Below, in pieces: positions 15,354-17,294 of a stretch of 45,760 nt of DNA. The first letter of the stretch is position 1. Each line of letters begins with the position of its first letter. This DNA comes from Deltaproteobacteria bacterium. GTDB taxonomy: Bacteria; Desulfobacterota; DSM-4660; Desulfatiglandales; HGW-15. The notes below the pieces were generated by a model. The model made no database searches, was not told the DNA's origin, and worked only from the letters and a program-made list of their open reading frames with translations. The DNA is taken from NCBI GenBank assembly GCA_016930795.1, contig JAFGFY010000157.1, forward strand, positions 1 to 45,760, written 5' to 3'. The translations under genes were made by a program, and so were the position numbers.

Positions 15354-17294
15354 ATGTCGGAAACAAAATCCACCAACAATTCTGTTGAACAGGAACAGGC
15401 CCCGGTTCGTCTACCCGAACCGCCCGCCGGTATGCTGCGGGTCACCCGGACTGAACTGGTCTGGCCAGGCAAATACAACGACGACGGCACCCTCAAAGAG
15501 GTGCCCAGGGTGAGCCTGCCCTTTCAAGTGATCGAGACCGTAAACGAGAGCAGGGCCACCCGCGAGGCCCTCAAGGGCGGCATCCAGAGAGGTCTTTTCG
15601 ACGTCTATGAGGGTAAGGAGGGCGACAGTTTTGAGGATGGCTGGAAGAACAAGCTCATCTGGGGCGACAACCTGCTGGTGATGGGGTCGTTGCTGGAAAA
15701 GTTCGCCGGGAAGGTCGATTTGATTTACATTGATCCACCGTTTGACACAGGTTCAGATTTTTCATTCAAAACTATGGTTGGTGATGAAGATAGCCCCATC
15801 CAGAGTAAACAACCAAGCGCAATTGAAGAGAAAGCTTACCGGGACACTTGGGGCGCTGGTTATGACAGCTATCTATCGATGCTTCGTGACCGACTGTTAC
15901 TCTTACATGATTTGTTAGCAGATACGGGCTCTATATTTGTCCATTTAGATGTTCATACTGGACCGTATGTTAAGGCTTTGATGGATGAGATATTTGGGCA
16001 GGAAAATTTTCAGAACGAAATTGCTTGGTATTACTATAATAAATTGCATGACAGTCGAAAGAAATTGTTACCAAAAGCCTTTGATCAAATCCTCTATTAT
16101 GTCAAAAATCGGCAAGCATCTTTCACTTATCAAGGTCTTAAAGAACCACGGGAGGAACCTGTAACCAAATTAAAGTATAGAAAGGTGCAAGGGAAAATTC
16201 AGAATATAATTGGGCCGGATGGAAAGGCTGTAACTTATGTAAGCACAGAAAGAACTGTTGATAATGTCTGGCGTATTCGATGTCTTCAGCCAGCAAATAA
16301 AAAGGAATGGGTTCATTTTCAGACACAAAAGCCAGTCGATTTAATAGAGAGAATAATTCAAATATCAGCACGTACGAATTTCCTCATGCTTGATGCATTT
16401 ATAGGTTCTGGGTCCTCGCTTATTGCAGCCGAGCGTCAAGGGTTACGTTGGATTGGAATTGATTTATCAAGATGGTCGATTCACTTGTCTCGCAAGCGCC
16501 TGCTGGGCATTGAAAACTGCAAACCGTTTGAGGTGCTCAACCTAGGCAAGTACGAGCGCCAGTACTGGCAGGACGTGACTTTCGGTAAAACCAGAGACAA
16601 ATCCCTCCCTGAGCAGGCCCTCTATGAATACCTGGCCTTTATCCTCAAGCTTTACGGCGCTCAGCCCGTGGCGGGACTCACGCACCTGCACGGTAAAAAG
16701 GCCAGGGCCATGGTGCACATCGGTGCGGTGGATGCGCCGGTGACCATATCCGAAATCGACTCAGCCGTGGACGAGTGCGTGCAGCTTAAACAACCCGAGT
16801 TGCACGTTCTGGGGTGGGAGTGGGAGATGGGGTTGTACGACCTGATGGTGGAGGCGGCGAAGAAGAAGGGCGTAAAACTCCTGCTGCTGCAGATACCCCG
16901 GGAGGTGATGGAGCAGCAGGCCGCGGCCAAGGGGGATGTGCGCTTCTTCGAATTGGCCTATCTGGAGGTCGAAATCAAAACCCCCAACAAACTGACTGCC
17001 CAAGTCAACCTCAAAGACTTTGTGATCCCCAACACCGAACTGATTCCGGAAGAGGTGCGCAGCAAGGTCAAGAAGTGGTCGGATTATATCGACTACTGGG
17101 GTGTTGACTGGGACTTCCAGAACGACACCTTCATGCAGAGCTGGGTGGCCTTTCGAACCCGCAAGGAGCGCAAGCTCCCTCTGGTCTCCGACTCGCACAC
17201 CTATGAGAAGCCGGGCAAGTACCGCATCCTGGTCAAGGTTATAGACATCTTCGGAAACGACACATCTCAAGCCTTTGACGTGGAGGTGAAATAG
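15354..17294 (+). CDS. Type III-like site-specific DNA adenine methyltransferase (Mod)
   Basis: 646 aa; DLIYIDPPFDTGSDF (motif IV DPPF) precedes LDAFIGSGSSLIAAERQGLRWIGIDLS (motif I), the beta-class order; HFQTQKPVDLIERII (motif X region). Confidence 0.93.
   Translation: MSETKSTNNSVEQEQAPVRLPEPPAGMLRVTRTELVWPGKYNDDGTLKEVPRVSLPFQVIETVNESRATREALKGGIQRGLFDVYEGKEGDSFEDGWKNKLIWGDNLLVMGSLLEKFAGKVDLIYIDPPFDTGSDFSFKTMVGDEDSPIQSKQPSAIEEKAYRDTWGAGYDSYLSMLRDRLLLLHDLLADTGSIFVHLDVHTGPYVKALMDEIFGQENFQNEIAWYYYNKLHDSRKKLLPKAFDQILYYVKNRQASFTYQGLKEPREEPVTKLKYRKVQGKIQNIIGPDGKAVTYVSTERTVDNVWRIRCLQPANKKEWVHFQTQKPVDLIERIIQISARTNFLMLDAFIGSGSSLIAAERQGLRWIGIDLSRWSIHLSRKRLLGIENCKPFEVLNLGKYERQYWQDVTFGKTRDKSLPEQALYEYLAFILKLYGAQPVAGLTHLHGKKARAMVHIGAVDAPVTISEIDSAVDECVQLKQPELHVLGWEWEMGLYDLMVEAAKKKGVKLLLLQIPREVMEQQAAAKGDVRFFELAYLEVEIKTPNKLTAQVNLKDFVIPNTELIPEEVRSKVKKWSDYIDYWGVDWDFQNDTFMQSWVAFRTRKERKLPLVSDSHTYEKPGKYRILVKVIDIFGNDTSQAFDVEVK

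Follow-up and report, generated by a model that had tools for sequence, protein, structure and literature searches.

The mod gene of a type III restriction-modification operon, lying in a 45,760-nucleotide stretch of DNA from a Deltaproteobacteria bacterium (the window), is best read as a conserved frame with an exchangeable insert, in which the whole recognition-plus-catalysis cassette was exchanged as a block (probability of about 0.88). The gene contains a sharply bounded block of AT-rich composition, its conservation is decoupled between frame and core, the trees of the two parts disagree, and codon-level identity to relatives breaks at the edges of the block.

The locus and its predicted products

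The features are listed below in the order of the window, all on the + strand.

13864-15315, +: SLFN_AlbA_2 / HATPase_c_4 / Fic-like_C gene (Pfam), immediately 5' of mod
15354-17294, +: mod gene, predicted beta-class type III DNA methyltransferase of 646 aa (Pfam, PADLOC, PDB fold match)
15435-15713, +: N-terminal frame (aa 28-120) with the motif III strand and helix, GC3 0.82; 80-93% identity across phyla in closer homologues
15717-16481, +: probably exchanged low-GC3 cassette, codons 122-376, with motif IV (DPPF), TRD and motifs X, I and II (change-point fit, ~50% identity, incongruent tree)
16014-16307, +: target recognition region within the cassette (aa ~221-318); 15-27% identity to most frame relatives
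16494-17291, +: C-terminal frame (aa 381-646), GC3 0.77; 80-90% identity across phyla in closer homologues
17297-20098, +: res gene, predicted type III restriction subunit (ResIII; Walker A, DEAH; PD-(D/E)XK-like C-terminus; Pfam, PADLOC)

Mod matched Pfam N6_N4_Mtase over aa 121-373 (E 1.7e-39) and PADLOC MTase_III over aa 28-639 (E 4e-109), and its top PDB fold match was EcoP15I Mod (4zcf). With DPPF at aa 127-130 and FIGSG at aa 349-353, the motif order IV - TRD - X - I places it among the beta-class type III enzymes. Res matched Pfam ResIII (E 4.3e-16) and PADLOC REase_III (1.6e-20). Its RE_endonuc match (3.9e-4) fell under the Pfam cutoff (20.6 vs 23.4 bits), with HPDWxx...IIETKG readable in the sequence. 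The SF2 helicase and PD-(D/E)XK nuclease predicted in Res, adjoining mod, point to type III restriction-modification, and the SLFN_AlbA_2 gene, mod and res were assigned on their sequences to one such operon. A recognisable homologue of the SLFN_AlbA_2 gene was found near mod in 16 of the 63 tabulated loci.

A low-GC3 block occupies the middle of mod

The original prediction described a low-GC cassette inside mod on the basis of hand counts, and recounting in 60-nt bins reproduced all of these to within 2 points: 0.60 (15661), 0.35 (15721), 0.32 (16021), 0.33 (16081; 0.35 by hand), 0.40 (16141), 0.40 (16201), 0.53 (16501) and 0.67 (16681). The block is uneven, with bins reaching 0.45-0.53 at 15781-15900 and 0.45-0.50 at 16381-16500. 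The signal was sharpest at synonymous sites. A two-change-point fit of GC3 along mod placed the block at codons 122-376 (nt 15717-16481), with GC3 of 0.74, 0.30 and 0.76 before, within and after it; within 3 lnL, the start ranged over codons 119-133 and the end over codons 371-381. The lnL gain was 65.1, compared to a mean of 6.7 and a maximum of 11.9 in 200 synonymous-preserving shuffles. The lowest-GC3 block of Mod had a z of -11.2, and the worst value among eleven neighbouring genes was -4.4. Codon usage in the core differed from that in the Mod flanks (chi2 186, df 41, p 2.5e-20) and in host genes (p 1.2e-7). The predicted low-GC block is confirmed. Three GC3 levels coexist at this locus: ~0.53 in host genes, ~0.65 in SLFN/Res, and 0.78 in the Mod frame with 0.30 in its core.

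The block nearly coincides with the Pfam N6_N4_Mtase span (aa 121-373). Its structural limits were read from an AlphaFold model (mean pLDDT 70, lower in loops 131-165). In this model, the motif III strand (99-103) and helix (106-117) lie on the frame side, the cassette begins on the left where the motif IV strand (121-126) begins, and ends on the right within the helix that follows the motif II strand (365-370). The cassette is therefore predicted to hold motif IV, the catalytic motifs that follow it, the TRD and motifs X, I and II, approximately the middle 40% of the gene, and the frame to consist of the last 266 residues and an N-terminal part that includes the strand and helix of motif III. 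The block had been thought to cover the catalytic core and the target recognition region, and to stop right after the FxGxG-like motif; the coverage stands, but the block continues for ~25-30 codons beyond that motif, through motif II.

Frame and core have separate histories

A scan of bacterial and archaeal genomes yielded 71 homologous loci from many phyla, with three more in viral contigs, and further mod homologues were taken from genomes of the window's own order. This operon type reaches more than twenty phyla. Identity of closer homologues to the window was 80-93% over aa 28-120 and 381-646, ~50% over aa 121-220 and 319-380, and ~15-27% over aa 221-318. This is the layout of an exchangeable-cassette mod family, with a conserved 5' and 3' frame around a non-homologous centre. 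Motif I-II agrees with the frame consensus in many of the relatives.

Across 1,954 pairs with frame identities of 0.3-1.0, core identity was nearly independent of frame identity. The window and locus L040 are 90% identical in the frame, 48% in the catalytic columns and 17% in the TRD. Conversely, L049 and L037 are 74% identical in the frame and 91% in the TRD (84-91% when L002 is included), and L047 and L084 are 64% identical in the frame and 83% in the core. The core kin of the window are L088, L026 and L083; L026 has a frame identity to the window of just 55-59%, with core segments at 73/61/59%.

The trees agreed with these identities. The window grouped with L040 in the frame tree, and with L088, then L026 and L083, in the core tree (both groupings starred). 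In AU tests, grouping of the window with L040 on the core was rejected beyond doubt (p 3e-79). On the frame, the grouping of the window with L088 was rejected at p 0.018 and with L088 and L026 at p 0.013, values that are moderate and should be read with care, the AU groups having been picked after the identity table was seen. The core-sharing group L049, L037 and L002 was likewise rejected on the frame (p 4e-4), and the core-sharing group L047, L022 and L084 was not (p 0.4). Core and frame phylogenies are thus in conflict, as in an exchangeable-cassette family.

Breakpoints had been predicted near 15720 and 16495, and codon-level identity to nineteen frame relatives indeed breaks where the composition does. 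This identity is high up to codon 120, falls at codons 121-124, with the collapse between codons 120 and 123, and recovers at codon 380, in RKRLLGIEN. Both breaks lie inside protein-conserved motifs; at the left one, the protein is still conserved through DPPF. Breaks of codon identity inside conserved motifs are the pattern expected of homologous recombination anchored in conserved motif DNA. Decoupled identities, AU-backed tree conflict and matching breaks therefore support the predicted replacement of the specificity module by recombination without any recourse to GC.

As separate observations, the window and L040, which have the closest frames, hold unrelated cores that are the most AT-shifted of the 63 compared below. 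In L083 (a Verrucomicrobiales MAG, ~2650-5960), the mod with a window-type core is broken inside that core by an apparent IS66-type element; its C-terminal part is frameshifted, and it is separated from res by another, unrelated ORF (7034-8128).

An AT-rich valley runs through the mod genes of both families tested

GC3 was compared in 63 usable rows, namely 62 full-length mods (window included) and the IS-interrupted L083. Amino-acid-corrected GC3 was lower in the core than in the frame in all 63 (mean -0.22, Wilcoxon 5e-12). At conserved positions with the same residue, it was lower in the core for 16/16 amino acids compared. In Res of the same operons, GC3 was close to flat (0.60-0.70) and dropped solely in the poorly aligned last codons. 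Amino-acid composition as the cause of the valley is ruled out by the corrected values and the same-residue comparison; low conservation is ruled out because the AT shift extends to conserved core residues, and because Res shows almost no dip.

A distant Mod family of the EcoP15I-like kind also showed a lower GC3 in the TRD (16/16), which lay below that of host genes (15/15); the amino-acid correction applies to the 63 rows of the window's family. The motif IV segment of the EcoP15I-like family lies outside the valley. As its TRD is low and its motif IV segment is not, the valley seems to go with the exchanged segment rather than with the methyltransferase fold. Within the window's family, the right valley edge showed only a trend with motif I-II replacement (rho 0.25, p 0.053), and none was seen in a segmental test at motif IV.

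Core GC3 correlated with that of the frame (r 0.80) and lay below it by an almost constant amount; the line of its regression on frame GC3 crosses y=x solely at negative GC3. This rules out a fixed or single AT-rich donor pool followed by amelioration. The Mod frame exceeded neighbouring host genes in GC3 in 46 of 54 loci of the window's family (mean +0.09, host GC3 being a rough value from the longest open frames), an excess that contrasts with the usual AT-richness of transferred genes. No excess was found in the EcoP15I-like family (+0.016, p 0.21), and biased conversion that lifts frame GC3 is thereby ruled out as a general cause.

The original prediction named two findings that would count against it: the same GC profile in close homologues, and congruent phylogenies of core and flanks. 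The former is present (63/63) and the latter is clearly absent. Because homologues show the same profile, the GC dip by itself is not proof of recent import. The low GC of the DRD of modA12, below that of both sides, has been taken as a mark of transfer (PMC3311624); our literature search for the generality of a low-GC recognition region returned no report, which is not proof of absence. The family-wide valley cautions against taking a low-GC specificity region as a recent import.

Alternatives to an exchange

The dip could be built into type III recognition cassettes as a steady state, caused by a weaker GC-raising force or stronger AT pressure, and it would then be silent on any exchange here. 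We give this reading slightly less than an even chance. The valley in every row of both families speaks for it, as do the near-constant offset of core from frame and the crossing of y=x at negative GC3 alone, a crossing that a fixed AT-rich donor pool cannot yield. However, the offsets of the window (-0.47, the second most extreme) and L040 (-0.57, the most extreme) lie 2.3 and 3.3 SD below the family mean, and the phylogenetic conflict is independent of composition. An intrinsic property would therefore explain part of the depth of the dip, but not the exchange. The depth in the window corresponds to the general valley plus an extra shift, which is compatible with an AT-rich source.

The valley might also be a general signature of steady-state recombination, in which the frame recombines among alleles and is kept at or above host GC3, and the non-homologous cassette, unable to pair, drifts to an AT-biased mutational equilibrium. 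We regard this as unlikely. If it were true, single mod genes would be internal natural experiments on the GC-raising force (biased conversion, PMC4450053, or selection). The valley in any case offers a clean within-gene contrast for the question of what sets bacterial synonymous GC.

Fast divergence of the TRD and core in place, driven by diversifying selection with the frame held by Res, is very improbable. Selection on specificity is expected to raise TRD divergence, but synonymous composition shifts sharply at both edges, GC3 at conserved core residues is below that of identical residues in the frame, shared cores sit in different frames (L026; L049/L037/L002; L047/L084), and frame and core trees conflict. 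A zone of rare codons and slow translation, selected for cotranslational folding of the TRD, would fit the match of the block to a structural module; it is hardly credible, since AT-rich hosts (host GC3 0.28-0.40) commonly use AT-ending codons and their cores are AT-shifted nonetheless. An assembly chimera is the least probable of all: the host genome is a metagenome assembly of 285 contigs, but the mod ORF is open across both junctions and the same architecture, a conserved frame with a different low-GC3 core, recurs in >60 other loci.

A possible route of the exchange, and the search for a donor

For block exchange, the preferred reading, we propose the following route. The frame (aa 1-120 and 381-646) is presumably constrained to fit Res and the Mod dimer, and the target recognition domain, together with the catalytic pocket and the AdoMet-binding motifs, lies on the insert. 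We infer that homologous recombination, anchored on the left in FAGKxDLIYIDPPF and on the right in RKRLLGIENCKPFE, put an AT-richer insert from another Mod allele in place of the old one and altered the recognition sequence. In type III systems, Mod supplies the specificity for methylation as well as for cleavage. A single exchange would therefore retarget the whole system and leave the fit between Mod and Res intact.

The searches gave no donor whose core is near-identical, 75% (L088) being the highest core match, and the event is therefore not dated. Core-only queries returned no donor from viral contigs. From phages and plasmids, they returned one partial phage match of 60-80%, with the rest <60% and, among the matches listed, at most 47%. 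The best match in 297 genomes of the phylum was 47%, with no close donor. A second or silent mod-like cassette was sought in the window's own genome, where the query gave one match only, and none was found.

Relation to known systems

The exchange is a larger version of the TRD exchange in EcoP1/EcoP15 and modA, and the mechanism of such swaps is already known. What we consider new is the extent of the cassette, the cross-phylum reach of the frame and the presence of the valley throughout both families tested. The EcoP1I and EcoP15I mod genes have highly homologous ends and a non-homologous central third, held to set specificity (PMC3874151). The window's mod likewise has conserved ends around a non-homologous centre. 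However, EcoP1I and EcoP15I are two related plasmid/phage systems, whereas the present frame extends across phyla and the exchanged part extends over motif IV and motifs X-I-II.

In the modA alleles of Neisseria and Haemophilus phasevarions, the variable DRD moves as one block, flanked by 5' and 3' regions that are conserved and that retain DPPY and FxGxG (PMC3311624). In the window, both motifs lie inside the low-GC cassette, which sets it apart from the modA type. Moreover, a tandem repeat was looked for in the window's mod and none was found, unlike the simple sequence repeats of a phasevarion. In Helicobacter pylori, as summarised in PMC3983042, TRDs move among non-orthologous type III mod genes and across species (Furuta and Kobayashi 2012, cited therein), with recombination taking place where conserved methyltransferase motifs are encoded by weakly similar DNA. 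In that summary it is TRDs that move; here, in a family spanning many phyla, it would be the methyltransferase core as a whole. Type III m4C systems carry an extra 5' ATPase gene (PMC8259958), and the SLFN_AlbA_2 gene of the window occupies a comparable position ahead of mod and res.

In more than twenty phyla, this type III restriction-modification system pairs a constant Mod frame and Res with a replaceable core for catalysis and specificity. The frame/core layout suggests places at which type III enzymes could be cut and rejoined.

Neighbouring genes

Genes for RadC, a UvrD/PD-(D/E)XK helicase-nuclease, SLFN_AlbA_2, Mod and Res follow one another on one strand (10314-20098), overlapping or nearly touching, and the GC of this run is higher than that of its surroundings. 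The UvrD-like gene matches GajB and DRT helicase models. The run is possibly a single five-gene defence unit. Within the SLFN_AlbA_2 gene, a perfect 12-nt tandem repeat (GGGGAAGTTACC, 3.7 copies) was observed at 15037-15080. It encodes a repeated EVTG in frame, and a change in copy number would alter the length of the protein in steps of 4 aa.
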